Part shown: piece by piece, positions 5,748 to 32,783 of the stretch
Layout of the letters: each line of letters opens with the position of its first letter
How positions within the stretch are numbered: position 1 is the first letter of the stretch
Translations under genes and position numbers: made by a program
NCBI GenBank assembly: GCA_016784965.1
Contig: JADHTQ010000020.1
Span: forward strand, 1-64,000
DNA length: 64,000 bases
Origin: Bacteriovoracaceae bacterium
Lineage (GTDB): Bacteria; Bdellovibrionota; Bacteriovoracia; Bacteriovoracales; Bacteriovoracaceae
Direction: 5' to 3'
Notes under the pieces: generated by a model
Database searches by the model: none
Seen by the model: the letters and a program-made list of their open reading frames with translations, nothing else
What the model was told of the DNA's origin: nothing

Positions 5748-7067
5748 TTACAAGTTTCGTGTCCCAGAAGTGCCTGATGGCCCTGGAGCAGCTTCTGTGG
5801 GTACCGGTGATATTTCACTTATGTTTTTTGTATAAATATCATCACATCTGGAGGCCACTTTTTCGTAATCGTTTCTTGATTGTACAGTTGGATTGGTAAT
5901 AATCGATGCATCGCGACCGATAATTCTTTTTAATTCAGGGTCTTTTAAGTTTGATGCAATATGCCCTATCATTTTATCATATGAGGGTAAAGCATTGTGG
6001 TCTACGTGGTCTCCAGGGTAGAACTCAAGGGCACTTCCTGTGAAGCTACATTTTGGATAATAGAGATTTTTTCCTACCTGAATGTACTTGTAATCTTCTT
6101 TTACAATTCCACCATAATCAGCATTTTTTACCGATCTAATAACTGGATTTTTTTGTACAACTGCAGGGCAACGATAAGTAACTTTTGGTTTAAGTGTGTG
6201 TCCCTTTGATTTTAATACCTGGCACTCAGTATTGCCAATTTTCACTTTAAAATTTTCTTTAACGTCTCCAGTTTTTTTAAATTCTTTTAAAGCTTGTGAT
6301 GCGATATAGTCCATTATAGATGTGCGCATGGCCTCAACACCTAAAACTTTGGAGGAATCATTTATATCTTTGTTTGGATTGCGGTAAAAATCTACTCCAT
6401 AAGCAAACATGGCACAAAGTAGAAGATCTGAAGGTCCTTGAACTTTCTGAAGTTGTTTGGAGCTTAAATAGCTATTGCGCGAAAAGTGGGGTACTCCATA
6501 TTGGCTGGGATTGTTGTTGTTGGTAGTCATTGCCCATTCAAGCTTGAATCCAGGTTGCTTTCCATAGATAGAGCCCAAGGCGGCACTGATTTTGCGTCCT
6601 TTTTCAGCTTTTCCAGTAGGAAATTCAGTAAAATCAGATACTGTAAGTCCCTGTAATAATCCAATCGTTTTTTTGCGTAGAAACATTTTTTTTAGTTTTT
6701 CACGAGTCAATCCGGCTTCTTTTAAAGCTTCATCAGTTATGGCCTCATCTAGATATCCAAAGATCTCAGCAATAGAATTTTCTGTTGAAAAGAGAGTGTC
6801 TCTTTGGTCGATGGCCCATGCCCACATATCACCAAAGCTGTCATGAAAAATAAATGGAGAGTCAGAAAGTACTTTATCACCATCTCCGACAACTTTTGCT
6901 GCAAATGATAATTCTTGATCTGCAGGCGTTTGCTTAGAGAGTCCTCTAGTTTTAAATTGCTTTTTTGCAGGTTGCACTACTAAATCAAAAGGTTTGTAAG
7001 AGCAGGCCATTACTTGATTTATTGAAACGGCTATAAAAAATATAAAAAATAGTAAATAGATCTTCAT
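5748..7067 (-). CDS. Exported protein, possibly a lipoprotein, of unknown function
   Basis: 439 aa. A hydrophobic signal segment (residues 3-19) ends in VMAC at residues 19-22, which could be a lipobox; if so the mature protein would be lipid-anchored at Cys22. The mature part has scattered cysteines (LLLCAMF, TECQVL, YRCPAV, PKCSFT, SRCDDI) that could form disulphides, and a Pro/Gly/Ser/Thr-rich C-terminal tail. A GGGGAG site precedes the ATG. No family is recognised. It heads a two-gene leftward transcript divergent from the hydrolase gene at 7239. Confidence 0.65.
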   Translation of the reverse strand: MKIYLLFFIFFIAVSINQVMACSYKPFDLVVQPAKKQFKTRGLSKQTPADQELSFAAKVVGDGDKVLSDSPFIFHDSFGDMWAWAIDQRDTLFSTENSIAEIFGYLDEAITDEALKEAGLTREKLKKMFLRKKTIGLLQGLTVSDFTEFPTGKAEKGRKISAALGSIYGKQPGFKLEWAMTTNNNNPSQYGVPHFSRNSYLSSKQLQKVQGPSDLLLCAMFAYGVDFYRNPNKDINDSSKVLGVEAMRTSIMDYIASQALKEFKKTGDVKENFKVKIGNTECQVLKSKGHTLKPKVTYRCPAVVQKNPVIRSVKNADYGGIVKEDYKYIQVGKNLYYPKCSFTGSALEFYPGDHVDHNALPSYDKMIGHIASNLKDPELKRIIGRDASIITNPTVQSRNDYEKVASRCDDIYTKNISEISPVPTEAAPGPSGTSGTRNL

Positions 7068-7238: not shown

Positions 7239-8336
7239 ATGAAGCTTTCAAATTTAATAATTATTTTTGTGTTAGCGCAACTAGTTAATTTTTCTGCGAT
7301 TGCCTCACCTTGCCTAGACGCAAGCAGCTGTAGGGGCATGATTACTATGTCGGGTAAAAAAATACCATATTACAGAAATTATCCTTTGAGTGGTCCAAAT
7401 GTATCGGTCAGTAAGGCAATTGTAGTAATTCATGGAAATGGTCGAACTGCAAGTAGCTATTTTGAGTCTATTGTTCAAGCTGCTAGAATTGCCGAAGGCA
7501 GGTATCGTTCTCGTGCAACTTCAAGTACCATTATTGTTGCCCCTCACTTTCGTTTTAAATCTGATATGGATAATGCCGAAGCCTCTAAAAGCTTGTATTG
7601 GGATAATGGCTGGAAAGCAGGAAATGATGCAAAAAATAAACAAATTAGCTCCTATCAAGTTATTGACCACATTCTTGGTAGGTTAAATGACAGAAATAGA
7701 TTTCCCAAGTTAAAAAAAATTACAATGGTCGGACATTCGGCCGGAGGACAGTTTGTACAGCGTTATGCAGCGGGATCAAAGAAGCCATCTTCACTTAGAT
7801 CTAGCTTGGGTATCAAGTTTATTGTCGCCAATCCCTCAAGCTATATGTATTTAAATGATAAAAGAAGAGTTCCAGGTACAAGTAATTTTTCCTTACCATT
7901 TGTAGTTATCCCCTTTCCCCCCTTTGTGGCACCTCATCCAAAATTTCCTAAAGTGAAGGAGGATGATGAATCTGATGATAATAGTAAGCGCAATATGTTT
8001 TGTCCCGACAGTTATCATAAATACAAATATGGTATGAATGGGCGAAACCGTTACATGAATAAATCCTCAAAATCTACAACTCGTTCTCAATACAAAAAAA
8101 GAAGTGTGGTCTATTTTCTTGGAACTGACGATGATGTTTGGGATGAGGATCTTGCGATCTCTTGCTCGGCCATGGTTCAAGGAAAAAATCGCTATCAAAG
8201 AGGTGCAAACTTTAAAAAGTTTATGGATAAGTTCTATAATGGGCATAAACACAGCTTTAAAAAGGCCCAAGGAATCGGTCATACAAGTAGGGGCATGTTT
8301 AAATCTGACGAAGGTGTAAAACTTCTTTTCTACTAG
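7239..8336 (+). CDS. Secreted alpha/beta-hydrolase
   Basis: 365 aa with a signal peptide (about residues 1-23). The alpha/beta-hydrolase fold is indicated by a strand and oxyanion segment IVVIHGNGRTASSYF, the nucleophile elbow TMVGHSAGGQF (Ser in G-H-S-A-G), an acid candidate in the loop LGTDDDVWDED, and a late histidine in KAQGIGHTSRGMF. Relatives include esterases and peptidase-like hydrolases acting outside the cell; the substrate is unknown. The segment between the elbow and the acid loop holds a lysine-rich insert. GGAG upstream supports the ATG. It converges with the parvulin gene 13 bp downstream. Confidence 0.72.
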   Translation: MKLSNLIIIFVLAQLVNFSAIASPCLDASSCRGMITMSGKKIPYYRNYPLSGPNVSVSKAIVVIHGNGRTASSYFESIVQAARIAEGRYRSRATSSTIIVAPHFRFKSDMDNAEASKSLYWDNGWKAGNDAKNKQISSYQVIDHILGRLNDRNRFPKLKKITMVGHSAGGQFVQRYAAGSKKPSSLRSSLGIKFIVANPSSYMYLNDKRRVPGTSNFSLPFVVIPFPPFVAPHPKFPKVKEDDESDDNSKRNMFCPDSYHKYKYGMNGRNRYMNKSSKSTTRSQYKKRSVVYFLGTDDDVWDEDLAISCSAMVQGKNRYQRGANFKKFMDKFYNGHKHSFKKAQGIGHTSRGMFKSDEGVKLLFY

Positions 8337-12786: not shown

Positions 12787-13020
12787 ATGACAAATAAAAA
12801 ATATGGTTCTTATACAATAAAGACCGCTGCAACCATCATTGTGTTTTTAATATTATATATTCAAGTACTATGTCTATTTCTTTGGATCTTTGCTTACAAT
12901 GGAGGAAGTGTCTCCGCCAACCGGGATTTTTTATATAAAGAGCTTATTGCATGTGTTATATTTTTCTTCCTAAATTATATAATAATACTTAAATCTGGAA
13001 TAATTAGGCGGAAAAACTAA
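12787..13020 (+). CDS. nuoA: Truncated NuoA-like complex I subunit
   Basis: 77 aa, against about 120-147 in the family. VFLILYIQVLCLFLWIFAYN (residues 19-38) aligns with the NuoA second helix (consensus FxxFDVExxFLxPW), and a third hydrophobic segment follows. The first helix and the cysteine-containing loop that contacts the peripheral arm are absent, and there is no room upstream to restore them. The conserved Asp and Glu of the second helix read Tyr24 and Gln26. Its position directly before nuoH-like, and its one-base stop/start overlap with it, support the assignment despite the low similarity. Confidence 0.6.
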   Translation: MTNKKYGSYTIKTAATIIVFLILYIQVLCLFLWIFAYNGGSVSANRDFLYKELIACVIFFFLNYIIILKSGIIRRKN

Positions 13021-14030
13021 TGGATACTGGGGTGTTACAATATGCTGTGCGAGTTGTTGTAATCTTATGTGTTGTACTAATTCTCGTTCCATTAGTTGCA
13101 TATATTGAACAACGTTTTTTCATTTTAAAATTAAAGAATCTAGGCAGGTATAGGTTATATCAATTCTTTTTTGATCATATGAAGACCATGTTTAAAGATA
13201 ACAAAAGGTGTAAAAAACAAGGTTATCATACACTTTTGTTAGCAACTTCGTTGTTACCACTTGCTGCAATACCTCTGTTTAGTTCTTTTAATTACAGAGG
13301 ACAGTCACTTGTTTTTGAGTTAATTGATCCTCATTGGAGCTTCTTTTACATACTTATCACTTTATGCTTGATATCCATTGTTGAATTATTGATTAGCTAT
13401 CTTATACAAGGAAAAGTTAGTAAAGGTGCTATTCGAGCTGGTATTTTTAATATTGGCAATGATTTATGTATTATACTTTCTTTGCTTGCACTACTCTTTA
13501 TCTACAAAACCTTTAATCTGCATGAAATTATAATTATACAAAATGAGCCTCTTTGGCACTTCTTTCCAAGATGGGGGATTTTTGTCCAACCACTTGCAGG
13601 TTTAGTTTTTCTTATATGCTTAATGGTCAAGCTCAATCTTGCACCATTTAATTCAGATAGTGCACCGTCAGAATTGATATATTCAAAATATCTGGGTTAT
13701 TCACCCTACTCATTTATGATCGCTGTAATAAGTAGGTATTTATACATGATTTCATTGATTTTAATTTTTGTTACTTTTTTTATGGGGGGATACAATATAC
13801 TACCTTTTTTTACAGATGTGATAGAGCGGTATCCACATACAATTACACTATTTCAAATTCTCTCAGTAATTTTAAAAATGTTTATTGTATTACTGCTTTT
13901 TACTTGGCCCAAAGGCTTAATCTCTACTTTTAAAATTGATATGGTACTAGAGATAAGCTTAAAAAGGAGTTTGATTTTTGCTATTATTAATCTTTTTACT
14001 ACAATAACGATTGTTCATTATGGCTATTGA
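13020..14030 (+). CDS. nuoH: Divergent NuoH-like complex I membrane subunit
   Basis: 336 aa with about eight hydrophobic helices. Family traces are an ER-like pair in the first cytoplasmic turn (VAYIEQRFF) and the quinone-loop segment NLAPFNSDSAPSELIYSKYLGYSPYSF, which matches the NuoH consensus around APFD-x5-SEL and EYSG. Within it the usual ETNR reads KLNL and the PEAE acids read DSAP, so several conserved charged residues are lost. NuoH normally forms the quinone chamber with NuoB/NuoD, neither of which is encoded in the window. It overlaps its upstream neighbour by one base and nuoJ-like by 11. Confidence 0.75.
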   Translation: MDTGVLQYAVRVVVILCVVLILVPLVAYIEQRFFILKLKNLGRYRLYQFFFDHMKTMFKDNKRCKKQGYHTLLLATSLLPLAAIPLFSSFNYRGQSLVFELIDPHWSFFYILITLCLISIVELLISYLIQGKVSKGAIRAGIFNIGNDLCIILSLLALLFIYKTFNLHEIIIIQNEPLWHFFPRWGIFVQPLAGLVFLICLMVKLNLAPFNSDSAPSELIYSKYLGYSPYSFMIAVISRYLYMISLILIFVTFFMGGYNILPFFTDVIERYPHTITLFQILSVILKMFIVLLLFTWPKGLISTFKIDMVLEISLKRSLIFAIINLFTTITIVHYGY

Positions 14031-14529
14031 TTTAATCTTTTCGTCTATATGTATTGTCTGTGCTATTTGTGCTGTGGTGGTGAAGGATCGCTTGATGTCC
14101 ATAGTATTTCTTATGTCACTTACAATTTTTATTTCAGCTATATACTACAGATTTGGGATGTATGTTGTTGCGATCTCAAACTTGCTGCTTTATTTGGGAG
14201 GGATTTTATTTTCAACTTTGTTGATATTATCTCAAATTAGTATTTTTGATAACAAGTCATATACTGCTAAACATCTCGCTCATTCTAAGAAGTACCTCAT
14301 ATTGATATTGCCAGCAACTTTTTTTGCAGTTTTTACTTATTTTTTATCAATTAATAAAAATTATTACAAACAAATAGTAGATATAAAGTTCAATTTAGTC
14401 GCAATTAGTAATCATGTTTTAATAAAACACTATTTTACAAGTGCTTTATTATTAATTCTAATAACTATTGCAATTTTTATAATATTGAACGTTTATAGAA
14501 ATTATATTTTAAACTCTAAGGATACTTAG
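14020..14529 (+). CDS. nuoJ: NuoJ-like complex I membrane subunit
   Basis: About 169 aa, five hydrophobic segments, near the family length. NLLLYLGGILFSTLLIL corresponds to the NuoJ helix 3 region (consensus xLLYVGAIMVLFLFVxM) that carries the pi-bulge. I chose the ATG at 14020, inside the end of nuoH-like, over a TTG three codons earlier. Position between H and K matches the standard order. NuoJ helps couple quinone chemistry to the proton path. Confidence 0.72.
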   Translation: MAIDLIFSSICIVCAICAVVVKDRLMSIVFLMSLTIFISAIYYRFGMYVVAISNLLLYLGGILFSTLLILSQISIFDNKSYTAKHLAHSKKYLILILPATFFAVFTYFLSINKNYYKQIVDIKFNLVAISNHVLIKHYFTSALLLILITIAIFIILNVYRNYILNSKDT

Positions 14530-14814
14530 ATGTTATTTTATTATACAGCATTTATACTATTTACAATTGGCTTGATAGGGATACTCATTAAAAGAAGTCT
14601 TATATCAATATTTTTCTCAATTTTAATTATGGTAAATGGAGTAAGTTTATTCTTAAATTTATTGACAAAAACTGTTGGTAACTATGAGGGGCAGACATTA
14701 TCAATGTTTACTATGTTGTTGGTGTTAATTCAGTTACTGATTTTTTTAATGTTTATCCTTGTCTTCTTGAGTAATAAAAAGACCGAATCGACTGATGGAT
14801 TAGAAAATGTTTGA
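14530..14814 (+). CDS. nuoK: NuoK-like complex I subunit lacking both conserved glutamates
   Basis: 94 aa, three helices, aligning without gaps to E. coli NuoK from my memory of that sequence: GLIGILIKRSL matches GLTGLVIRRNL and EGQTLSMF matches DGQVMYIL. At the two positions holding the essential proton-path glutamates (E36 and E72 in E. coli) this protein has Leu32 and Gln68. It follows nuoJ-like directly and overlaps nuoL-like by 8 bases. The fold is recognisable, but proton transfer through the usual NuoK route looks impossible. Confidence 0.82.
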   Translation: MLFYYTAFILFTIGLIGILIKRSLISIFFSILIMVNGVSLFLNLLTKTVGNYEGQTLSMFTMLLVLIQLLIFLMFILVFLSNKKTESTDGLENV

Positions 14815-16183
14815 TGTTCAAATATACTCATTTAATTTTGCCGTTGATGAATTATCGTTAGCCTTTTTAACATTTTTTTCTGTTACAACAGTTGTGTTAC
14901 TAATTAGTATATTGTGGAGTTTCTATAAAAATAAAATCAAAGTTAATAGTGGGATGTTTATAACATTTATCACCATGATCTTGTTTCATATATTTTCATT
15001 TCTTGCTAAAAATGCTTTTACCTTTATTATTGTACAGACAGTTATCATTCTTCTTGTAACATATATTGTATATTTCCATAATGCTTTTAAGCTTGCAGTA
15101 GGCGGCGGTGTTAAAATGAGGGAGACATTAACAACTGAGTATGTAGGCCATGGACTTGTTACAGTAGCTATTATTGGTCTTTGTGCGATCTTGAACACTA
15201 CAGTATTTGCTGATTTTAATAACACATCTTTAGAACTCATTAACAATAGTTCAGGAATCTTGAGCACCTTACTCACATTTTTAATACTTGGATTTATGGT
15301 AAGAATATTAGGTATCAAATCATACAATTTAGATTTAAAAGACTTGTCTACACAATGGATGGTTATTTTTTTTCATTATGCAATATTTAGAGGACTTTTT
15401 GGCGTAATGATATTATGTCGATTCTTGTTTCTATTTAAATATTTGGGATATTTATCTAATATTTTGGTATGGTGGATACTATTATTTACTATAATGCATG
15501 TACTGAAGCTACTAATTCAAAAAGATTTGAATAAGATTCTTATTCATACAATTATTGCCCAAATGTTATTTGCATACTTTTTATGTGTAATTAATACATC
15601 TATGACTCGTGTTTTGATCTTCGTATTTCCACTCACTATATTAAGTATTTTATTGGTCTATCTCTTTTATGCACTGGTAAAGATGAAACTTGGCAAGAAT
15701 CTATTTAATGATTTGACATACGTCCCCATAATTGCAGTTGTATCAACAATTATAATGTTTAGCTATGTAGGAGCAATTAGGTTATTTGATGGTGACATAC
15801 TGTTACCTATAATATCGTTAGTATCAAATATTGTAATTGTTGCCGTACCCTACTACTTTAATATTATTGGTCCCTATAATAAGCAGTTAGAGCAAATAAA
15901 ATACAAATTCTATTCAATATGGGATGCAGTTGAAAATTACTTCTATATTGAGCAAATGATTTTGTCAGTATTTAAGACAATTAATTTAGTCTCGACACTG
16001 CTTGTAAGGATCATAGATAAGTATTTAGTGAGGAGCGTATTTAATTTTATTGGAGTGTTGATGTATCAATCCGGTAACTATATGGACTATATAAATGCCA
16101 GGACGACTCATCATGCACTAATGTATATATTAGTAGGTTTGTTAAGCATAATGTTGGTTATTGCGGCCCACATTCATAGTTAA
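14807..16183 (+). CDS. nuoL: Shortened, divergent NuoL-like subunit
   Basis: 458 aa, about 150 residues shorter than typical NuoL (about 610), with roughly 12 hydrophobic segments. The C-terminal part is the best match: ENYFYIEQMILSVFKTIN...IIDKYLVRSVFNFIG...MYQSGNYMDYINARTTHHALMYI resembles the NuoL lateral-helix and anchor region. The first antiporter half is weakly conserved. The usual WE of helix 5 reads VQ, and the GKSAQxPLHTWLPDA segment cannot be found, the aligned stretch being ILGIKSYNLDLKDL. Assignment rests on the C-terminus and gene order. Its start overlaps the end of nuoK-like. Confidence 0.65.
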   Translation: MFDVQIYSFNFAVDELSLAFLTFFSVTTVVLLISILWSFYKNKIKVNSGMFITFITMILFHIFSFLAKNAFTFIIVQTVIILLVTYIVYFHNAFKLAVGGGVKMRETLTTEYVGHGLVTVAIIGLCAILNTTVFADFNNTSLELINNSSGILSTLLTFLILGFMVRILGIKSYNLDLKDLSTQWMVIFFHYAIFRGLFGVMILCRFLFLFKYLGYLSNILVWWILLFTIMHVLKLLIQKDLNKILIHTIIAQMLFAYFLCVINTSMTRVLIFVFPLTILSILLVYLFYALVKMKLGKNLFNDLTYVPIIAVVSTIIMFSYVGAIRLFDGDILLPIISLVSNIVIVAVPYYFNIIGPYNKQLEQIKYKFYSIWDAVENYFYIEQMILSVFKTINLVSTLLVRIIDKYLVRSVFNFIGVLMYQSGNYMDYINARTTHHALMYILVGLLSIMLVIAAHIHS

Positions 16184-16206
16184 GTTTAGGAGTATTTAAA
16201 AATTTA

Positions 16207-17661
16207 ATGACGGATATAAACTTTTTAATACAATTTTTTATCTTACTATTTTGGGTGATTGGATTTTTTATAGCACCATTGGATGGCAAAACTATTAAAA
16301 TGTATTCAATGGTGGGTGCTTCAATATTTTTAGTTTTTTCATTGCGACTTGCAATGATGGTAAAAAATCTAAATCTAGTTAGCGTTCTAGCTAAAGTAAG
16401 TGTCAGTGAGCAATATGGTTTAAATTTGTTACTCGGTCTTGATGGGCTTTCTTATGTGTTTGTTGTCTTAAATGCACTGATGCTGTTAATTGCAACGTTT
16501 ACATGCTGGAATCTCGAACTGAAAAGATACAAGATATTTTTCACGTCATTATTTACTCTTGCGTGGTCACTAAATGCGGCTTTGCTGTCTTTAAATGTAT
16601 TGCCGTTTTATGTGTTTGGTGAAATGGCGATACTACCAACATTTATTTTAGTGAGTTTATTTCGTAGTAACGATGCAACGGAAGATAATTTTTTCTTTAT
16701 TGTGATTTCTGTGTCTAGCGGTGTGATACTTAGTGTCTTAATGTATCTGTGCGCAAATGCCTATGAGCTATATGGCAATTATGATCTTACGCTGGCGGTG
16801 ATAAAAGACTTAAAATTAAAGTATAATGGCATTTTTTCTCCAGCATTTTTGGTGTTTACTCTGTTATCCATTGCTTCCATGGCAAAGATGTCGATTTTTC
16901 CATTTCACAACATAAGAAATAAAATTTTTATAAATGTTCCACTACCTGCCATATTGTTAATCGATGGTATTTTTTTAAAGATGGCAGCATATGGATTATT
17001 GAGATTTATCATACCTGGTTTTAGAGAAGTTGTGACAGATGTTGGGTTTTATTTTGTTTGTATCGGGATATTTTCAATTCTTTTTACATCGATATTAGTA
17101 ATGAGTGAGACTAAAATATTGAAAATAATTTCATTTAGCTCTGCCACTCACTTAGGTATTGTTGCTGTCGGTTTGTTTGCAATGAATGATATTTCAGTAG
17201 TTGGATCAATAATTCATCTGATGAGTTCAGTTTTATTAATCACTGGGGCCTTGATGATTGTTAAATTGTTTCATAAAAATTTTGCTAAACATACCAATGA
17301 TAGAAGTAGGCTTTTAACACTTAGCATGCTTATAATATTAATTTTAGGACCACCTATAACTGTCGGTTTTATTGGCAGCTTCATGACGGTTGTAGGCATT
17401 GTAAATTATAGTGGATTAATTGGTCTAATTTTTTCCATCAGTTTATTGATTTTTGGATTTAATTGCATAAGGTCAATTCTTAGATCAAGTTTTACCAACT
17501 ATTTGTATATGACAGTGACTAATGAGGGACAAATTGCATCTATTTTTGAACAAGTTTCTTTTGTATGCATATTTGTTTTAGTGGTTTTAATTGGTGTTTT
17601 TCCCACACCTATAATTGAGTTGATTAAGTGGCCAATTAAATATCTAGTGAGTGTTTTATGA
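16207..17661 (+). CDS. nuoM: NuoM-like antiporter-type subunit
   Basis: 484 aa, near family length, 13-14 hydrophobic helices. It keeps core NuoM residues: Glu139 in FYVFGEMAILPTF, Lys227 in MAKMSIFPFH and Lys258 in GIFLKMAAYGLLRF, matching the helix 5 Glu and helix 7/8 Lys of canonical proteins. The WLPDAHVEAPT loop between the two lysines is replaced by NIRNKIFINVPLP. This is the best conserved member of the cluster, so a proton channel could still operate here. It starts 23 bp after nuoL-like. Confidence 0.85.
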   Translation: MTDINFLIQFFILLFWVIGFFIAPLDGKTIKMYSMVGASIFLVFSLRLAMMVKNLNLVSVLAKVSVSEQYGLNLLLGLDGLSYVFVVLNALMLLIATFTCWNLELKRYKIFFTSLFTLAWSLNAALLSLNVLPFYVFGEMAILPTFILVSLFRSNDATEDNFFFIVISVSSGVILSVLMYLCANAYELYGNYDLTLAVIKDLKLKYNGIFSPAFLVFTLLSIASMAKMSIFPFHNIRNKIFINVPLPAILLIDGIFLKMAAYGLLRFIIPGFREVVTDVGFYFVCIGIFSILFTSILVMSETKILKIISFSSATHLGIVAVGLFAMNDISVVGSIIHLMSSVLLITGALMIVKLFHKNFAKHTNDRSRLLTLSMLIILILGPPITVGFIGSFMTVVGIVNYSGLIGLIFSISLLIFGFNCIRSILRSSFTNYLYMTVTNEGQIASIFEQVSFVCIFVLVVLIGVFPTPIIELIKWPIKYLVSVL

Positions 17662-17694
17662 TAAACTTTACTTTTTTTTCGATGAAGAATTTTT

Positions 17695-18735
17695 ATGGGT
17701 AGATTTGTACAATTTTTCTTTATATTAGTAAGCGTTGCCATATCATATGGCTTAATTATGACAAATGATTTTTGTTCTTGGATCTTTTTGCTGGAAATTA
17801 TGGCGGTTGTAGAATACTCATCACTGTATTTTTCTGATCAAATGTACTCTAAAGATGCAGCTATAAAACATATTATTTTACATATTACAATGTTGCTATT
17901 TTGTCTTATAAGTGTAGGTCTGTTCTACGCAAGCACACACTCTTTGGACTTTATGCAATATAAAATTTATAATCAGGAGATCTTTTTAATTTTTGTATCA
18001 ATGTATGTTATTTACACAGTTTTTAAGTTAGGGGCATTTCCTTTTCATTCATGGTCAGTTAATTTTTGTTCTAATGCTAATGAAGGGACCATTATCAACG
18101 GTTTATTAATCAACAGATTGGTTGTTGCATATATATTAATCAATTTAGGCCAAAAGTTTATAATGAGGTTGCAACCTGACTCTCAGCTTTTAATCAAAAA
18201 TATTGTTTATATCTTTGCCGTAAGTGGAACATTTTATGGATATTTTATGACAATAGTGCAGAAAAAATATAAAAATATTTTCATTTATCTGCTAGTAGCA
18301 CACATGAGTACCATTATTTATATAATGAGTTTTAACCAAGAATTGAGTAACTCAAAAGAGCTTATTTTTTATTTAGTAGCTGTAGTTTGTGCTGCAACAG
18401 GTGGATTGATAGTAAGAAATAAGCTGTTGGTAACAATTTTTCTAATAAGTATGATAGGATTTCCTCTCACTGCGGGATTTTCGGCAAAACTGTTGTTATT
18501 TGTCAGTTATTTTAAATTCACACCAGAATTTGATGTATTTCTATTGTTTCTGCCACTGATGTTTGGTTACGTTCATAGCTTAAAATTGATAAATGGAGTG
18601 TATTATCTTGATGAAAATCATCAAAAACACAAAAATTTTGATAACATTAAAGCAGATAGTGTTTTATTAAAAATCATTAAGACCATACTAGTATTATTTG
18701 TGGTTTTTGGTGGATTGGTGCCCTTTAATATATGA
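17695..18735 (+). CDS. nuoN: Shortened NuoN-like antiporter-type subunit
   Basis: 346 aa, against about 450-490 for typical NuoN. It keeps VFKLGAFPFHSW with Lys111 (canonical FKLSAVPFHMW) and GFPLTAGFSAKLLLF (canonical GIPPTAGFIGKFYLF). The sequence DVYEGAP after the first motif is changed to NFCSNANEGT. About 10 hydrophobic segments are present, so three or four helices are missing relative to canonical NuoN. It ends one base before the start of the GYF/TPR gene, which indicates a common transcript. Confidence 0.75.
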   Translation: MGRFVQFFFILVSVAISYGLIMTNDFCSWIFLLEIMAVVEYSSLYFSDQMYSKDAAIKHIILHITMLLFCLISVGLFYASTHSLDFMQYKIYNQEIFLIFVSMYVIYTVFKLGAFPFHSWSVNFCSNANEGTIINGLLINRLVVAYILINLGQKFIMRLQPDSQLLIKNIVYIFAVSGTFYGYFMTIVQKKYKNIFIYLLVAHMSTIIYIMSFNQELSNSKELIFYLVAVVCAATGGLIVRNKLLVTIFLISMIGFPLTAGFSAKLLLFVSYFKFTPEFDVFLLFLPLMFGYVHSLKLINGVYYLDENHQKHKNFDNIKADSVLLKIIKTILVLFVVFGGLVPFNI

Positions 18736-18736
18736 A

Positions 18737-21700
18737 ATGAAGAAAAAATACAAATTACGACTCAAAAGCAAAAGAATTGTCGGGCCCTTTACAAAAGAGC
18801 AGCTGGGAGAGCTTTATTTAAAGGGTCATATTGATGGTACTGAACAATTTCAAATATTTCCAGGTGGACAATGGCATGGACTGACTCATTTTAAGGAAGT
18901 TGAACAACTGATACTAAAGATAATCTCAAAGGACATCTCCTCTAAGGATCTAAAAGAGAACTTTGAATCTGAAACGATAATTAATTTATCGTTGGCCAAA
19001 TTTAAAGACAAAATAAAACATGATAATGCAAAAAAAGCATCAGATAAGCCTAAAAGTGCTAAAAAGAATGATGTGAAAAATAAACCAAAAGTAGATGGAG
19101 ACTTTAAAGAATTTAAATATGTAAAAAAAGATAAAAAGATTGAGTTTGACCCATCAGTAGTTGAAGAGCCAGAGGAAAAAGAGGTTGAGCAAAAAAATGA
19201 AGTTGAGAAGACTAGAGTCATAAGAGCTGCCAAAAGTGGAATACATGGACAAACTAAAACATTTTTAAACCCTGATTTTGCTCCAATTGTTGTAGAAGAG
19301 GAGGAAATTGAGGAACCAGAAGAAGAGGTAATTGAAGAAGAAGTTGTTTCTAACGATGGCAAAACCGAGTTTGTTGATCTAAAAAATTTACTTCCAGAAT
19401 TAAAAAAGGACGTTAAGGTTGTTGAAAAAGACTTTAATAAAAAACTTGTAGAAATCCAAAAACAAAAAGATGAAATAGAAAGAAAAAAGCTAGAAAGAGC
19501 AAACGCAACAGATGATGACGATGATGACGACGATGAAGAAGATGAAGAAGATGCAAAACAGAAGAGAAAAAAGAAAATTATTTTATTTCTTGTTTTACTA
19601 GTAGGTGCCTATCTATTTCTAGATGAAGATAATCCTGTCAAAACTCCAATAAAACCATTTAAAGTGGTAATTTCATTTCCTGTGTCTGAAGAATTTGAAA
19701 AGGCAGAAGAAGCTGTAGAGTATTATAAACAGGGAGTAAAAGCTTATAGGGTTGGAAGGTACACTGATAAAGCTTTGGCCCTAAAAAAGTTTCATAGGTC
19801 ATTAGAGTTGCGCATGAAAAATAATGCGTCTTTAGGATATCTCATTATGATTTATGCGGAATTATACAATGATGCTAAAGATAAAAGGCAAGCAGGAGCA
19901 GCCATTTTTAATTTGATTCGATATTCAAAAAATTTAATCCTTTCTGATATAAATATTGTTATGGGCCTTGCTATATTCTATACAAAGCTTAGAAAGTTTG
20001 ATGCTGCAAGAAATATGGTGGAGACTTATTTAAGATTTACACAAAGACTACATGATGATGATGATGAAGTAGATGAACGTACCTTGGCTTTAAGAAAAAA
20101 GGCAGATAAACCATCATTGAAACTCTTATCGGTGTACTTAAGAATTCTTATTGAAATTGGAGATTTTATAGAAGCAGAAAAGGTTTTTGAAAAGTTAAAA
20201 GATGTTAAAATCCTTCCCATAGAGGGATATAATGCTTTGGCCAGATACTTGGAAGTAACTGGTAACCAAGAAGAGGTGTTAGCTATTGTAAAAAAAGAAA
20301 GAAAAATATATCCAAAACACGTTAGTAGCTGGTTTGATTATGCAGATTACTTGGGTAAAACAAAAAATATAAAAGAATATAAGAAAGTGATGAGGGCAAT
20401 TAAAATCTTGAGAGCTGAAAGATCTCCAGTTTTTTACGCAAAATTTCTAGAATATCAAGGTGATCTAAAAGGAATGACTGATGACAAAGTTGCTGCAGCA
20501 AAATACTACAGGAAATCTCTAAAAATCCATGAAACGGATGAGTTAAGATCTAAATTGGCTGCTTTTGAAAGAGGCGGAGAAAAAAAGATCAATCGTTGGA
20601 TTCTCGAAAGTCAGGTAGTAAAAATAATGAGAAAAGCTAAAGTTGAAATGAAGAGGAAAAATTGGGATAAGGCCTTTATATATGCCGTTGAAGCTGAAGA
20701 TCTATACGACACTTACATTCCTGCATTACTTCTTTTGGCGCAAGTTCAAATTGTAAGAGGGTTTTATGAATCTGCACTTGAAACACTTGAAAAGCTAATT
20801 GAGGAATTTCCAACTAACGAAAAGATAAATTTTGCATTGATAAATGCATATATAGGATCTTATCGTATGGAGGATGCTCGCAAGCAGATCCATCTAGTGT
20901 CTACATCCAAATTTGTAACAACTTATGAATATGCATCGGTACTGGGAAGATATTACCTTGAAAGAGGGGATGTGCTTTTAACCTTAAAATGGATGCATGA
21001 AAGTGTGTCAAGAAATCCAGTGAATGACGAAGATTATTTTTTATTGGCAAAGATATATTTAGATCTTAGAAAATATAAAAAGGGAAAGATGACTTTGATG
21101 AAGGCAATTGACCTCGATCCCCAAAATGTAAATTATCAAGCGCTATATGCGCGTACTCTTTATGAACTAGATAGTGCAGAGGTGGCCATTGGTTATTTAA
21201 GAGGTCTTCTGAAAAAATACCCAGATCACCCGAAACTTTTGGCAGGGATAGCAACTTATTACTATAGAAGTGGGCAGATAAAAAACTTCGAAGTATATAA
21301 AAGAAAAATTGAGTTGTTACCAGATAGAGATCCGGAGTTTTTTAGATTTCTAATCAAGGTATTTATGCAAGATGAACAAACTGATGAAGTTATTAAGTAC
21401 TGTGAAGAGTTGTTAAAAGTAGAGCCTGGAGACTTAAAGACACGTATGATTTTAGGTGAGAATTACTTGTTTAAAAATGATTTTGATAGGTCTTTAAAAG
21501 CCTTTTTAAGCATTGAATCTAGGTTAAAATCTTTTCCGCGAACATATTATTTTATCGCAAAGTTGTACATTATGAAAAAGAATTATGAAAAGGCCATGGA
21601 ATATGCAGAAAAGGAGATTGCTGCGAATAAAAACTTAGAGTATGGCTACTTCATAAAGGGTGAAATTTTAAAAGAACAAGGAAAGATAAATTTGTCAATT

Positions 21701-21991
21701 GGGCAATATGAAAGAGCACTTTCCATAAATGGAAAATATGTTGAAGCACTACTATCTCTTGCATACATTAAATATCACCATAAACTTCTATATGATGAAG
21801 CCCGTGAGTACTATGCACGTGCAAAGAAAGAGGACCCCGCAAATCCTGGTATTTATCTTCATTTAGGTAATGTATATAAGGAAATGGGGCAAGGAGATCT
21901 TGCCCATAATGCTTATAAAGTATATCTTGAATTAAGACCTGATGCCCCCAAAAAACGACAGATAAAAGAGATAATGCAATTTCTTAAATAG
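18737..21991 (+). CDS. GYF-like / single-TM / TPR envelope protein
   Basis: 1084 aa from the ATG at 18737, one base after the nuoN-like stop. An upstream in-frame start at 18698 would lie inside nuoN. Order: a GYF_2-like N-terminus (residues 1-60; KRIVGPFTKEQLGELYLKGHI, FQIFPGGQWHGL); a charged low-complexity linker (60-275) ending in an Asp/Glu run; a lysine patch; one TM helix (about 278-296, IILFLVLLVGAYLFL); then more than ten TPR-like helical repeats to the C-terminus. The likely topology is GYF in the cytoplasm and TPRs in the periplasm. GYF plus TM resembles the gliding protein GltJ/AgmX and long TPR arrays resemble GltI/AgmK of Myxococcus. The link with the Nuo-like arm is not explained by known biology. 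Confidence 0.7.
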   Translation: MKKKYKLRLKSKRIVGPFTKEQLGELYLKGHIDGTEQFQIFPGGQWHGLTHFKEVEQLILKIISKDISSKDLKENFESETIINLSLAKFKDKIKHDNAKKASDKPKSAKKNDVKNKPKVDGDFKEFKYVKKDKKIEFDPSVVEEPEEKEVEQKNEVEKTRVIRAAKSGIHGQTKTFLNPDFAPIVVEEEEIEEPEEEVIEEEVVSNDGKTEFVDLKNLLPELKKDVKVVEKDFNKKLVEIQKQKDEIERKKLERANATDDDDDDDDEEDEEDAKQKRKKKIILFLVLLVGAYLFLDEDNPVKTPIKPFKVVISFPVSEEFEKAEEAVEYYKQGVKAYRVGRYTDKALALKKFHRSLELRMKNNASLGYLIMIYAELYNDAKDKRQAGAAIFNLIRYSKNLILSDINIVMGLAIFYTKLRKFDAARNMVETYLRFTQRLHDDDDEVDERTLALRKKADKPSLKLLSVYLRILIEIGDFIEAEKVFEKLKDVKILPIEGYNALARYLEVTGNQEEVLAIVKKERKIYPKHVSSWFDYADYLGKTKNIKEYKKVMRAIKILRAERSPVFYAKFLEYQGDLKGMTDDKVAAAKYYRKSLKIHETDELRSKLAAFERGGEKKINRWILESQVVKIMRKAKVEMKRKNWDKAFIYAVEAEDLYDTYIPALLLLAQVQIVRGFYESALETLEKLIEEFPTNEKINFALINAYIGSYRMEDARKQIHLVSTSKFVTTYEYASVLGRYYLERGDVLLTLKWMHESVSRNPVNDEDYFLLAKIYLDLRKYKKGKMTLMKAIDLDPQNVNYQALYARTLYELDSAEVAIGYLRGLLKKYPDHPKLLAGIATYYYRSGQIKNFEVYKRKIELLPDRDPEFFRFLIKVFMQDEQTDEVIKYCEELLKVEPGDLKTRMILGENYLFKNDFDRSLKAFLSIESRLKSFPRTYYFIAKLYIMKKNYEKAMEYAEKEIAANKNLEYGYFIKGEILKEQGKINLSIGQYERALSINGKYVEALLSLAYIKYHHKLLYDEAREYYARAKKEDPANPGIYLHLGNVYKEMGQGDLAHNAYKVYLELRPDAPKKRQIKEIMQFLK

Positions 21992-27503: not shown

Positions 27504-28454
27504 ATGGATACAAGCATCAGAGAGCGCATCAGTCAGACACTAGAACAGGCCAAAAGTATTATTTTTGGACAAGACGATATGTTAGATGCAATTGTGGCCG
27601 CGCTGGTGTGTGATGGTCATCTGTTAATTGAAGGGATGCCAGGACTTGGTAAAACACTTAGTGTCTCCACCATCAGCAAACTGGCAGATCTGTCTTTTAA
27701 AAGAATTCAATTTACCCCAGACCTGCTTCCATCAGATTTAATTGGCACAATGATCTATAATCAACAAAAAGAGTCATTTATAACTAAGTTTGGTCCACTT
27801 TTTACTCAGCTTTTACTGGCAGATGAAATAAATAGATCTCCAGCTAAGGTACAGGCCGCACTACTTGAGGCGATGGCCGAAAAACAAGTTACTATTGGTG
27901 AAAAAACTCATATTTTATCAAGCCCTTTTGTAGTTTTAGCTACTCAAAATCCCATCGATCAAGAGGGGACGTATCAACTTCCGGAGGCACAATTAGATAG
28001 ATTTATGATGAAGATCTACGTAGATTATCCGTCATTTGACGCAGAAAAAAGTATTCTAGATCTAAAAAAAGATTCAGTTAATAGTTTAAGTCAGCTTCTA
28101 TCAACGGACGATATTTTAGAAGCACAAGAAGTGGTTGAAAATATTTATGTTGATGAAAAAATAAAAGACCTTATAGTTAAGATCGTACAGGCAACAAGAC
28201 CTGGAAACGAAAGATTTCTGAAAGAGTATGATGGTGCAATTTTAGCAGGTGCATCTCCTCGAGCATGTATTTGGCTATATCGAATAGGAAAATTTATTGC
28301 CTTTATGGATGATAAAGATTTTGTTTCTCCAGAACATGTTTTAAAAGTTATTCCGTCGGTTCTTGGACATAGAATCATATTATCCTATGAGGCTTCGATC
28401 GATAATATTAGCACTAGAGACGTAGCTTTAAAAATCGCAAAAACGATGATTTGA
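27504..28454 (+). CDS. moxR: MoxR-family AAA+ ATPase
   Basis: 316 aa. Walker A GMPGLGKT, the MoxR signature RIQFTPDLLPSDLIGT, Walker B LLADEINRSPAKVQAALLEAMAEKQVT, sensor 1 ATQNPIDQEGTYQLPEAQLDRF, and a lid domain with GASPRA. MoxR ATPases act as chaperones that load or remodel VWA-domain partners, and those partners follow immediately (BatA, BatB). It is the first gene of a tight six-gene rightward operon, 10 bp after the preceding exported-protein gene. Confidence 0.93.
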   Translation: MDTSIRERISQTLEQAKSIIFGQDDMLDAIVAALVCDGHLLIEGMPGLGKTLSVSTISKLADLSFKRIQFTPDLLPSDLIGTMIYNQQKESFITKFGPLFTQLLLADEINRSPAKVQAALLEAMAEKQVTIGEKTHILSSPFVVLATQNPIDQEGTYQLPEAQLDRFMMKIYVDYPSFDAEKSILDLKKDSVNSLSQLLSTDDILEAQEVVENIYVDEKIKDLIVKIVQATRPGNERFLKEYDGAILAGASPRACIWLYRIGKFIAFMDDKDFVSPEHVLKVIPSVLGHRIILSYEASIDNISTRDVALKIAKTMI

Positions 28455-28455
28455 T

Positions 28456-29304
28456 ATGGATATTCAATCTGTAAAAAAGGTAGTTGGAAAATTAAAGTCC
28501 AACTTATTTAAGAATTCAAATTCGTATTCAATAGGTATGCTTAGATCACATTTTAGAGGTACTGGCCTTCAGTTTAAAGAACATCAAGTTTATAGACACG
28601 GAGATGATATCCGCTTCATTGACTGGAAGGTTTTGGCCAGAACAAACGTGCCCTATATCAAAACTTTTGAAGAGGAGAGAAATGTCGAAATTGCAGTGGT
28701 GCTAGATGTCGGTCCATCGATGCTATCTGGATTTGAGGGAATATCTAAACTTCAGGCCAGTATTGAGATTTGCTGTTTACTGTATTTGCTCTCACAGGAG
28801 ACTGGAGATTATGTTTATACAACAATTGTAAGTAAAGATATAACCCATGTCCCAAAAGGCTCTGGTGAGCGGGGAATCATCCAATTTATATCAATATTGG
28901 AAAGACAAAAAATTATTGATGAACATGGCAATATAAATTTACTATATCAAGATAGACGGAGCGTTGATGAAGAAACGAGGATGAAGTCTATTTTAAAGCA
29001 TCTTGCAAAAAGAAGAGAGCTTGTCTTGTTGTCAGATTTTTATGACTTTTTTGATGTTGATTCACTAAAGAGAATTTTATTTAGAAGTCATGTCCACTGC
29101 TTTCAGATTCTTTCACCACTAGATGAAGCCCAGTGGGCACCATTTGCGTTGCATGTAAGTGAAGATACATCTTATTCAAAAGGAAAAATGTGTACTGTAA
29201 ATTTTAGTACCGAACAACAGTTAATCAAAGTATTAGGTAAGAGATTTAAAAAACTTAAAGTTCATGGTCGTTACTTAGAAGAATTTGTTAAGGAGATGAT
29301 GTAG
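28456..29304 (+). CDS. DUF58 protein of the Bat operon
   Basis: 282 aa, a VWA-like fold protein. The hallmark stretch is VYRHGDDIRFIDWKVLARTNVPYIKTFEEERNVEIAVVLDVGPSM. The last part would be the metal-site DxSxS in true VWA proteins but reads DVGPS, so metal binding is probably weakened. DUF58 proteins are regular partners of MoxR and Bat proteins at the inner membrane. It begins one base after moxR and overlaps the next gene by one base. Confidence 0.9.
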   Translation: MDIQSVKKVVGKLKSNLFKNSNSYSIGMLRSHFRGTGLQFKEHQVYRHGDDIRFIDWKVLARTNVPYIKTFEEERNVEIAVVLDVGPSMLSGFEGISKLQASIEICCLLYLLSQETGDYVYTTIVSKDITHVPKGSGERGIIQFISILERQKIIDEHGNINLLYQDRRSVDEETRMKSILKHLAKRRELVLLSDFYDFFDVDSLKRILFRSHVHCFQILSPLDEAQWAPFALHVSEDTSYSKGKMCTVNFSTEQQLIKVLGKRFKKLKVHGRYLEEFVKEMM

Positions 29305-30122
29305 TGGTTTATAGGTTTTTGCTACCTATATTCGTGATGCTTATGATAAATATATCATATAGCTATGAGCTTAGAGCAAAGTTATCATTGCAGGATACAA
29401 AAAAGTTACTACTATTTCCCGGAGATATATTTTCAGCACATATGATTATCTGGAGCACGAAAGAGGGTGATTCGTCTTTTGTCTCAGATGTAGAACAAGA
29501 GATTTCAAAATTAGTTGGAAACAAAATCTTAAAATCAATATATGTTATTGACATTAGCGACGTTTCTAGAAATGAGACAAACGTTGATGTATTGGAATTC
29601 AATTTATCTCTTGCGTTGATTGATAACATGAGGAGATTGAAATCATATAGATGGAATATAGGCAAACACAGAATAAGAGTTGAGTTAGAGGGTTTGCTTT
29701 TTGCTGAAAAAAAGATTCAACCTACTAAGAAATATATAATATTAGATCAAGTGGTTAAAAAGGAAGCTAACACCTGGTGGTATAAACTGTTGATCTTTGT
29801 AATAGCTGTCTCAGTCGGTGGATATAAGGTTAATGAGTATTTGAAAATTAAAAAAGAAAATAAAATTTTGAAAGACAAATTAGAAAATTCAAATTATTGG
29901 AAGAATAAATTTGAATCAGCTCAAACCAGAGAGCAGCTAGAGGAGATCTATCGCATAAGAAAAAGTTGGAGAGAGTTAAAAATCGACAATGAAAAAGTTG
30001 ATAATTTTTTTGTCTGCATAAACGAAAAACAATATAAGCAACAATGGACAGAGTACGAAATGTATGAAGTCAAAGAGTCACTAAAGAAAATAACAGAAAG
30101 TATTGAGTGTCAAGATGCTTGA
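29304..30122 (+). CDS. Single-TM protein in the Bat operon (DUF4381-like position)
   Basis: 272 aa from a GTG at 29304 that shares a base with the previous TAG; AAGGAG lies about 7 bases upstream. A signal peptide or anchor (1-18) is followed by about 135 periplasmic residues, one TM helix (about 157-173, WYKLLIFVIAVSVGGY) and a charged cytoplasmic coiled tail. In other Bat operons a protein of the same topology (DUF4381) sits at this position between DUF58 and BatA. I assign it by position and topology only. Confidence 0.6.
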   Translation: MVYRFLLPIFVMLMINISYSYELRAKLSLQDTKKLLLFPGDIFSAHMIIWSTKEGDSSFVSDVEQEISKLVGNKILKSIYVIDISDVSRNETNVDVLEFNLSLALIDNMRRLKSYRWNIGKHRIRVELEGLLFAEKKIQPTKKYIILDQVVKKEANTWWYKLLIFVIAVSVGGYKVNEYLKIKKENKILKDKLENSNYWKNKFESAQTREQLEEIYRIRKSWRELKIDNEKVDNFFVCINEKQYKQQWTEYEMYEVKESLKKITESIECQDA

Positions 30123-31068
30123 ATTTAGTAATCCACTATACGGTTTGTTTGGAGTATGTTGTTTACTCTTATGGCTAATAAACTACTTTAAACTATTCAA
30201 AAAACCACAGTTTTTTATACCGAAACGTTTTCAAAAAAAATCCTTCAAGTGGAGAAGAGCAGTTGTGGTCATTATTGGTGTAATTGCCTGGAGTTTAATT
30301 AGTATATCAGTTATGGAGCCAAGAGCTCCTCTTGGGTACGCTAATAATACAATTGAGGTCAATGATATATTTTTTGTGGTAGATGTGTCTGCATCGATGA
30401 CTGCAAAGGATTTTAAACCAAATCGTTTAGAGGTTTCTAAAAATAAGATTAGAGAATTTATAGATTTAAGGCCAAAAGATAGAATAGGAATAATTTTATT
30501 CTCTCAAAAAGTATATACCCTTCTGCCTTTGTCAACAGATTTAAAACTTATAAAGAAAATGGTAAAAAAAATTAATATAGATAGATTTTTAGGATCTGGA
30601 ACAAATATTGGTGATGCTTTGGCACTTGCTGTAGCTAGAGGTGCAAGGTCGCTTGCCAAAAACAAAGTGATTGTTCTTTTGACAGATGGTGTAAGCCAGT
30701 GGGGAAGCTTGACACCAATAGAAGCTGCCAAAGTAGCACGAGACAACAAAATGAAAATATATGCAATAGGTGTAGGAAAAGACCCCAATGCGAGATTACC
30801 AGGTGGAAGACTCATTCCAGGAGGAAGCACAGATGTTGGAGTTTTACAAAAAATTGCGGCAATTACCAATGGCAAATGGTACTTAGCAAAAAGTGCTAAT
30901 GCTCTAAAGAAAGTATTTGCAGAAATTAACAAAATAGAAAGGAGTAAAATAAAAGTTCATGGGCAAGTAGTTTATGATGAGATTTATCTAAAGTTTCTAA
31001 TATTTGGAGTTTTATTATTAATGGCCACAGAATTGGCCAGAAGATTTATAACAAAAGAAGGAATATGA
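30115..31068 (+). CDS. batA: BatA, VWA-domain inner-membrane protein
   Basis: About 317 aa from the ATG at 30115 (overlapping the previous gene by 8 bases; a TTG lies 12 bases upstream). Two N-terminal TM helices, a VWA domain with an intact MIDAS, DVSASMTAKDFKPNR, SGTNIGDALALA and VIVLLTDG, and a C-terminal TM helix. The type matches BatA: aerotolerance/stress proteins with the VWA domain in the periplasm between TM helices. It is likely regulated by the upstream MoxR. Confidence 0.9.
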   Translation: MLEFSNPLYGLFGVCCLLLWLINYFKLFKKPQFFIPKRFQKKSFKWRRAVVVIIGVIAWSLISISVMEPRAPLGYANNTIEVNDIFFVVDVSASMTAKDFKPNRLEVSKNKIREFIDLRPKDRIGIILFSQKVYTLLPLSTDLKLIKKMVKKINIDRFLGSGTNIGDALALAVARGARSLAKNKVIVLLTDGVSQWGSLTPIEAAKVARDNKMKIYAIGVGKDPNARLPGGRLIPGGSTDVGVLQKIAAITNGKWYLAKSANALKKVFAEINKIERSKIKVHGQVVYDEIYLKFLIFGVLLLMATELARRFITKEGI

Positions 31069-32783
31069 GCTTTTTATATTGGAAGTATTTTCCGATATTT
31101 TTATTGATATTTTTGCTATTTATCTTTTTTCAAATGAGAAGGGATAGACTTTATTCAAAGTGGATCTATAAATATTGGTTTTTGGTCAGATCCATCAAAA
31201 ACAAAATATCATCAATATTATATTACCTTGCATTTTTTATATTACTTCTTGCATGCTTGGATTTTAGAGGTGAGGAGCAGAGTATTAAAGGTGAAATCCC
31301 AGATCAAAAAACTATAATACTAATAGATGCCTCTGCAAGTATGCTAACTGAAGATGTATCACCTAATAGATATAATAAGGCACTACTACTTGCAAAACAT
31401 TTTGTAAAAAGGGCTGTAGGACATAAGATTGCAATCGTTGTATTTTCTAATATTCAAAAGAGAGTAATTCCATTTACAGATGATATCGATCTATTAAACT
31501 CTAGGATACAGGCCTTAGAAAAAGTAGATATCAGAAGGAATGGGTCAAATATTTTTAATGCTATAAAAGAATCACTAATTTATTTTAATGTACAAGAAAC
31601 AAGAAACATAAATGGCAATTTGCTAATTTTTACCGATTTTGAAGATACCAGTAGTACAAGAGGATTGCGCAGGGGTGAAATACCAAATTCATTAAATGTA
31701 GCGGTAGTAGGTATTGGGACTTTAAATGGAGGACTAATCCCCCTGAGGTCACAAACTGGGGTTTTAGAACGTCATAAAAGATATAAGGGGAAAAACGTAG
31801 TATCTAAACTTGATGAAAAAGCCTTAAAGAGACTAGGTGGGAATATTAAAAATTTTAAATACTGGGTGTCACAGTCTCTAACATTGCCTACAGAGGAGGT
31901 AATTAATTTCTTTAGAAGTAAGTTTAAAAAGAAATTGAGAAATAGTGAATACAAAATAAGACCTGTGTATGCAAAATATTTAGTGGTGCCAGCATTGTTG
32001 TTAATAATTATTTCGCTGATATTTAAGATGAGCAATACTTTCACTAGTACAGTGATCGTTACAATTTACATTTTGTCAAACCTGATTTACTCAACTCCAC
32101 TAGCAGCCAAAGATAAATATCTCACCAAAAAGATTGAAGACTACAAACAGAAGATGAGAAATGGTATGTTAGATAGAAGTGGCAGACTAAAGCTTGCAGA
32201 GTACTTACTCAGAAATAAAAAAGAAAAAGAGGCCCTTGAAATATATGAAGAAAATATTTCAAAAAAAGGTAAGCATACAAAACAAACATTATTTAATTAT
32301 GGTACAGCACTACTTGCTTCTGGAGAGATCAAAAAAGCAAAAGATTTGTATCAGAGCATATTAGATAAGTTGCCTAAGACAAAAGACAAAAAGGATTTGG
32401 CACTTATAGATTCAATTAGAAAAAATGTACTGCTTACATTAAAATCCAAACTTAACAAAAAAGACAAAAAGAAAAAGGGTAAGAAGAAAGAAAAAGACAA
32501 GAGTGACAAAGGTAAGAAAAAAGGCAAAGGAAAAGGCAAAAAGGATAAAAAGAAACAAAGCAAGGGGACAGCAGGCAAAGGTCAAAATAATGCCCAAAAA
32601 CCAAAAGAGAAAAAAGCACAAACTCTTGAGATGAAAGAAAGTATGATGCGTTTAAGGAAGAAATTGGTAAAAATACCTGCGGTATTAAAACAAATTTTAG
32701 ATGATGATAAAATGATTCAAAGAAAAAAAATAAGTACTTCACTTAGGCGATTTCAAAGAACAGCAACTAAAAAGGATTGGTGA
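31065..32783 (+). CDS. batB: BatB-BatC fusion: VWA plus TPR plus lysine-rich tail
   Basis: 572 aa. N-terminal TM helices, a VWA domain with DASASMLTEDVSPNRYNKA and LIFTDFED, a TM pair near residues 300-345, then a TPR-like segment (EAL-x-YEENISKKG...LFNYGTALLASGEIKKAKDLYQSIL), a strongly lysine-rich stretch (residues about 462-525) and a C-terminus ending KKDW. Separate BatC proteins in other bacteria are periplasmic TPR proteins that also end in a K-D-W-type tail, so this gene looks like batB and batC joined. ATGA overlaps link it to batA. Confidence 0.85.
   Translation: MSFLYWKYFPIFLLIFLLFIFFQMRRDRLYSKWIYKYWFLVRSIKNKISSILYYLAFFILLLACLDFRGEEQSIKGEIPDQKTIILIDASASMLTEDVSPNRYNKALLLAKHFVKRAVGHKIAIVVFSNIQKRVIPFTDDIDLLNSRIQALEKVDIRRNGSNIFNAIKESLIYFNVQETRNINGNLLIFTDFEDTSSTRGLRRGEIPNSLNVAVVGIGTLNGGLIPLRSQTGVLERHKRYKGKNVVSKLDEKALKRLGGNIKNFKYWVSQSLTLPTEEVINFFRSKFKKKLRNSEYKIRPVYAKYLVVPALLLIIISLIFKMSNTFTSTVIVTIYILSNLIYSTPLAAKDKYLTKKIEDYKQKMRNGMLDRSGRLKLAEYLLRNKKEKEALEIYEENISKKGKHTKQTLFNYGTALLASGEIKKAKDLYQSILDKLPKTKDKKDLALIDSIRKNVLLTLKSKLNKKDKKKKGKKKEKDKSDKGKKKGKGKGKKDKKKQSKGTAGKGQNNAQKPKEKKAQTLEMKESMMRLRKKLVKIPAVLKQILDDDKMIQRKKISTSLRRFQRTATKKDW

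Follow-up and report, generated by a model that had tools for sequence, protein, structure and literature searches.

The window, a stretch of 64,000 nucleotides from a member of the Bacteriovoracaceae (GCA_016784965.1, contig JADHTQ010000020.1, positions 1 to 64,000), contains seven genes for membrane subunits of complex I in the order nuoA-H-J-K-L-M-N, followed by a gene for a TPR protein (Table 1). All seven nuo genes are degenerate. The NuoK-like frame runs from ATG to stop, encodes 94 amino acids and lies between nuoJ and nuoL. It scores above the Pfam cut-off for ND4L/NuoK (PF00420; 44.1 bits against 26.1), and phmmer aligns it with E. coli NuoK (3rko_K), gap-free through helices 2 and 3, in such a way that L32 falls on E36 and Q68 on E72. 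The same two residues pair with the equivalent glutamates of the Mycobacterium (8e9g_K), Thermus (4he8_K), Paracoccus (8qby_K) and Thermosynechococcus (6hum_E) chains, and a MAFFT alignment with relatives gives the same placement. The first-pass annotation had proposed these two substitutions from an ungapped alignment with E. coli NuoK, and the five solved chains and the MAFFT alignment bear it out. No other acidic residue takes either position, as the only ones in the protein are E53 in a loop and E86, D89 and E92 in the C-terminal tail. The fold that the annotation supposed to be retained is also predicted: AlphaFold gives three TM helices in a NuoK fold (mean pLDDT 75), and the best 41 Foldseek matches of this model in the PDB are chains of NuoK/ND4L or of the corresponding subunit in MBH/MBS and further complex I structures. 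On profile, alignment and predicted fold, the frame is a genuine NuoK homologue. An identity as MrpC was rejected, since NuoK models outscore it and a separate MrpC-like gene lies on another contig (C9); that second NuoK-like gene, which carries an insertion, was in turn rejected as a canonical NuoK.

Table 1. Features of the window. G014 is a family genome with an intact second complex I set.
Feature	Coordinates	Strand	Remarks
Predicted secreted protein	5748..7067	-	no Pfam match
Predicted secreted protein	7239..8336	+	no Pfam match; GHSAGG motif, typical for alpha/beta hydrolases
nuoA, degenerate	12787..13020	+	77 aa, canonical about 120; PF00507 weak, 14 bits
nuoH, degenerate	13020..14030	+	336 aa; PF00146 107 bits; 9/25 charged/His columns kept
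nuoJ, degenerate	14011..14529	+	169-172 aa by start choice; PF00499 24 bits, under cut-off
nuoK	14530..14814	+	L32 at E36, Q68 at E72; PF00420, phmmer, MAFFT, AlphaFold/Foldseek
nuoL, degenerate	14807..16183	+	458 aa, canonical about 675; blastp to G014 NuoL2 E=4e-11
nuoM, partly degenerate	16207..17661	+	484 aa; PF00361 79 bits; TIGR01972 163 bits, cut-off 264
nuoN, N-terminally shortened	17695..18735	+	346 aa, canonical 460; PF00361 39 bits
TPR/GYF-like partner	18734..21991	+	TPR families; GYF_2 17 bits, under cut-off
Bat-like operon	27504..34387		MoxR-type AAA ATPase, DUF58, two VWA proteins, BatD

We judged residue retention against 47-51 canonical sequences of this family; a column counts as near-invariant when at least 97% of them conserve it. 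The window keeps 1/16 such columns in NuoA, 27/73 in NuoH, 5/18 in NuoJ, 5/13 in NuoK, 27/138 in NuoL, 40/99 in NuoM and 20/38 in NuoN. Of the charged or histidine columns, 28 of 79 are kept from NuoA to NuoN, and no continuous charged axis is left in the membrane arm. In NuoA, the N-terminal part is short, the conserved loop Glu is missing and the Asp/Glu pair of the TM2 motif has become Tyr/Gln; the protein can still be matched to its counterpart in the second set of genome G031 (blastp, E=2e-6). In E. coli, the Asp of this motif (D79) feeds NuoK E36 (PMC13324432). In the NuoH loop of the quinone cavity and E-channel, six of the seven near-invariant acidic residues are changed (E216, D223, E226, E228, E238 and E251, in G014 numbering), leaving E230 alone. 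NuoL has lost several central charged residues (K399/D400-type and the TM5 Glu) and most of its charged columns. Pfam finds no match in it, and the top Foldseek matches of its AF2 model are NuoL chains, which is supporting evidence only, as the model is of low confidence (mean pLDDT 59). NuoM, with 7 of 16 charged or histidine columns kept, and NuoN are the best-preserved membrane subunits.

The soluble arm is encoded on another contig (C81). The single NuoD of the window genome is a NuoCD fusion; nuoB lies on its upstream side, and nuoI follows it directly. Between them, the two loci supply the core subunits B, C, D and I (from C81) and H, together with A, J, K, L, M and N (all from the window). 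The equivalent neighbourhood of G014, near an aat-like gene, reads lipoprotein-nuoB-nuoCD-nuoE-nuoF-nuoG-nuoI; on C81, nuoE, nuoF and nuoG are absent between nuoCD and nuoI, although the flanking genes are those of G014. Of the remaining candidates in the genome, a NuoE/NuoF-like pair (C6) adjoins a GltD/NuoG-like protein and probably makes up a soluble enzyme of its own, while a second NuoF match adjoins an RnfD-type gene. NuoD His38 and Tyr87 (Thermus numbering), the ligands of the quinone head group, have been replaced by Lys (Lys192 of the fusion) and Pro (Pro241). The quinone-site ligands are lost, the operon has no NADH module and little of the charge axis in the membrane is left, so that the two missing NuoK glutamates are one symptom of a wider loss. 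That the normal catalysis of this complex has been lost is well supported by the residues and genes missing, from which we infer the absence of activity.

Two further proteins accompany the complex. The TPR protein begins with a GYF_2-like domain, followed by a Lys/Arg-rich linker, one TM helix and a long TPR domain, which the positive-inside rule predicts to be periplasmic; orthologues occur in 115 of 129 family genomes. A cysteine-rich lipoprotein, with eight cysteines invariant in a five-sequence alignment, is encoded upstream of nuoB and, among the genomes sampled, was seen only in Bacteriovoracaceae (0 of 24 genomes of other families).

The wider family, sampled mostly through metagenome-assembled genomes and with one genome from the window's own genus, places these genes in context. 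The usual layout is a canonical complex I set (set 1, A1-N1), then a second set (set 2, A2-N2), then the TPR gene. The window genes are nearest to set 2, with identities to G014 of 28.7% for NuoH (E=3e-51), 37% for NuoK, 27% for NuoM, 26.5% for NuoN (E=8e-50) and 33% for the TPR protein. Set 2 is intact in genus g15 (G014), G031 and G028, with nuoE, nuoF, H38, Y87 and both NuoK glutamates present. In most genera of the family, on the other hand, it is degenerate, often past BLAST recognition, and the loci form a graded series from intact g15, through the half-degenerate window, G020 and genus g34, to genera g3, g44 and g8, in which the proteins are unrecognisable. The substitutions in NuoK belong to this series and are not due to chance, as the same positions have been lost to other residues in relatives: the three g34 genomes have T/G/N at E36 and Q/Y/Q at E72, and G020 keeps E at the first position and has H at the second.

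In many genera, the seven frames have no detectable Nuo similarity. For those of one Halobacteriovorax, Pfam gave nothing above chance level, although the frame in the K position still shows PF00420 at E=0.29. Profile-profile comparison with hhalign failed to detect the most degenerate frames, in g3, g44, g8, g13 and others, so that homology there rests on synteny, size order and intermediates. At 38 loci outside g15, exactly seven hydrophobic frames precede the TPR gene in the nuoAHJKLMN size order, and their sizes follow the canonical ones with Spearman rho of 0.82-1.0 (median 0.96). Iterative HMMs seeded only with the intact g15 set recruited frames of further genera in the right position for A (6), H (20), J (13) and K (16); matches in a wrong position numbered one for K and none for A, H or J, while the models for L, M and N cross-match, as expected for paralogues; since only right-position matches re-entered the models, this is a test of specificity and not an unbiased search. 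In the tree of the TPR protein, considered for single versus repeated degeneration, the backbone is unresolved.

Several loci show partial states. At L206 (4457-9920; G005, genus g6), nuoE, nuoF and nuoG, which score very low, still stand beside a degenerate nuoB-nuoCD-nuoI, an apparent intermediate ahead of their loss. In G029 (genus g30; L207 and L184), nuoEFG and the quinone-site ligands are intact while the membrane set is degenerate, lacks the NuoK glutamates and is not accompanied by Na+-NQR; the soluble and membrane halves can thus decay separately. At L203 (6998-10897; G160, genus g25), the lipoprotein and a degenerate NuoCD are retained, together with a short NuoI-like frame without cysteine motifs, and no set-2 membrane genes precede the TPR gene. 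Such membrane genes are missing from this site at six loci, in g25, g47, g33, g4 and g46, which indicates that the function is dispensable somewhere. Other families of the phylum, too, have tandem membrane arms of complex I (L242, 10500-19950; L243, 10248-19936; L244; L241). In two of these four loci, nuoE and nuoF, with a NuoC-like frame, lie inside set 2, and set 1 at L246 has separate B1, C1, D1 and I1 and no nuoEFG; set 2 thus looks like the NADH type and set 1 like the 11-subunit type.

What, then, could such a complex still do? One answer, which we regard as unlikely but which keeps the most in its favour among the alternatives, is an altered route, in which clusters N6a, N6b and N2 would pass electrons between some other donor and acceptor, NuoM and NuoN would conduct ions passively or in the manner of an antiporter, with no coupling to redox chemistry, or both. 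The window keeps all 12 cysteines that ligate these clusters (4 in NuoB, 8 in NuoI), as do most of the lineages checked, several of them degenerate. NuoM retains its TM7 and TM8 lysines and the TM7 histidine (K228, K259 and H235), and NuoN the TM5 Glu, TM7 Lys, His and distal Lys (E123, K147, K200, H207 and K379; all in G014 numbering). The NuoB2 cysteine motifs, however, were not found in g34, g22, g36 and g18, g34 has lost most of the charges of M2 and N2, and in g3, g44 and g8 these proteins can no longer be recognised. In the window itself, the elements that would link the quinone site to the membrane arm (the NuoA Asp/Glu pair, the NuoH acidic loop and NuoK E36/E72) have gone.

Rather improbable, in our view, is that set 2 serves set 1, the canonical 11-subunit complex, in a regulatory or structural capacity, for example in a supercomplex or as an inactive paralogue. 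The tandem arrangement in most genomes would suit such a role, and there are precedents in other systems for dead paralogues with a partner role (PMC5201418, PMC3663545). Set 1, however, was not found in the window genome, which encodes a single NuoD and a single complex-I NuoK, and none adjoins the set-2 loci of G009, G011, G036, G110 and G112; set 2 is thus not an accessory of set 1 in these genomes.

In close genome pairs, evolutionary rates were compared directly between the two sets of a single operon. Both sets evolve slowly in g15. In the degenerate genera, the divergence of set 2 outpaces that of the adjoining set 1 several-fold, as between G002 and G048 (33-64% identity against 90-99%), and in extreme pairs identity in set 2 falls to 20-35% where set 1 stands at 80-95%. 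The dN/dS of set 2 is below 1 wherever measurable and nominally about 0.1-0.3 in the least saturated pairs, being undefined in many others, owing to saturation of synonymous sites. About 25 genera retain the open frames and the gene order, and simulated neutral substitution at 0.5 per site put several premature stops in each frame and left all seven open in 0/50 and 0/200 runs. By these comparisons, set 2 is under weak constraint on its sequence and clear constraint to remain protein, and the least probable reading of all, that of a functionless relic under relaxed selection and heading for loss, agrees with the fast divergence, the shrinking L and M genes and the absence of the membrane genes from the site in five genera, but not with the open frames, the simulations or the low dN/dS.

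The degeneration of set 2 also has a metabolic correlate. Strong NqrB matches occur in 20 of 22 genomes with a degenerate set 2 (the window genome and 19 others) and in none of seven with an intact one (Fisher p=2e-5, uncorrected for shared ancestry); as PF03116 also covers RnfD, only strong matches in frames of about 367-418 residues were counted. The exceptions are G029 and G019, whose membrane sets are degenerate although Na+-NQR is absent. Na+-NQR has been noted in Bacteriovorax marinus (PMC4014512). The window genome, which encodes Na+-NQR, Rnf-like and NuoE/F-like genes, gave no match to subunit I of a heme-copper oxidase, which most family genomes checked possess, and this suggests an anaerobic or fermentative member of the family.

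Genes that stay intact and in order after catalysis has been lost suggest that set 2 has a different job. The first-pass annotation argued for a changed role rather than random decay; that argument gains from the loss across the whole complex, its recurrence in the family and the open frames, while its focus on NuoK does not stand, as NuoK is not the lone altered subunit. We give an even chance to the reading that set 2 is an NADH-type complex I whose catalysis is lost and which persists, together with the TPR protein and the lipoprotein, as a scaffold of the envelope without a respiratory role. First of all, the constraint that survives is on number, order, size and hydrophobicity. Second, both linked partners are exported or membrane-anchored. 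Third, set 2 persists where no other complex I is left. The window set (12787-18735 with nuoB-nuoCD-nuoI of C81) would thus descend from an NADH-type enzyme containing nuoEFG, and would no longer oxidize NADH, reduce quinone at the normal site or pump protons along the E36/E72 axis. It would be kept as an assembled membrane complex, an inner-membrane scaffold anchoring the TPR/GYF-like protein and, directly or indirectly, the lipoprotein in an envelope-spanning assembly. The probable order of events is that the two partners joined while the enzyme was still working, as in g15 and g32 now, that Na+-NQR then took over NADH:quinone oxidation, and that catalytic selection finally ended while selection for assembly alone stayed. 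More tentatively, and a little short of an even chance, a complete complex I paralogue may have become a family-wide, non-respiratory, envelope-spanning machine, whose seven fast-drifting membrane subunits keep no more than their number, order, rough size and hydrophobicity and anchor the GYF-like/TPR protein and the disulfide-rich lipoprotein, with predation, gliding or envelope transport as possible purposes.

Some observations count against the scaffold. Retention of 12/12 Fe-S cysteines would be odd for a purely structural part and may point to a redox role, and several ion-path Lys, Glu and His residues are kept in the window NuoM and NuoN. In G029 and G019 the membrane set is degenerate in the absence of Na+-NQR, G029 moreover having nuoEFG and quinone-site ligands, and set-2 membrane genes are missing from the site at six loci.

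A ten-subunit complex that loses its chemistry in most genera of a family, while its genes remain open and ordered, provides a natural experiment for separating the parts needed for assembly from those needed for catalysis. It also points to a different function in this group of bacteria, which has predators (Halobacteriovorax) among its members. The graded series from g15 through the window, G020 and g34 to g3, g44 and g8 makes the process testable. For annotation, the case calls for caution: the window genome's NuoB and NuoD score above the NCBI curated cut-offs, and automatic pipelines may thus predict complex I respiration against the sequence evidence. The open-access literature, incomplete in coverage, yielded no description of a family-wide degeneration of complex I.

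Compared with complex I (NDH-1) of E. coli and Thermus (NuoA-N), the window set shares ten core genes (B, CD, I, A, H, J, K, L, M and N), recognised by Pfam, NCBIfam, PDB sequences or fold. It differs in the lack of nuoEFG beside nuoCD and nuoI, in the loss of the quinone-site His/Tyr, NuoK E36/E72, the NuoA Asp/Glu pair and most of the NuoH acidic loop, in the shortened NuoA, NuoL and NuoN, and in its TPR and lipoprotein partners. To set 2 of g15 (G014), G031 and G028 it is orthologous by best match and by synteny, both around the membrane genes (nuoN1, set 2, TPR gene) and at the soluble locus (lipoprotein, nuoB and nuoCD upstream of the aat-like gene); those sets, unlike the window's, keep EFG, H38/Y87 and E36/E72, and that of g15 evolves as slowly as set 1. 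Mrp antiporters, MBH and the 11-subunit complexes of the Fpo type have related membrane modules, and the Fpo type has no NADH module, but their catalytic and proton-path residues are conserved, and the window set, on the other hand, derives from the type containing EFG. A closer parallel in outcome is the deranged cytochrome bc1 complex of Acetobacteraceae, in which cofactor ligands are reported to be lost while the complex is retained, and for which a structural role has been proposed (PMC10715153); set 2 concerns a different complex and involves ten subunits, most genera of a family and a drift that proceeds past recognition.
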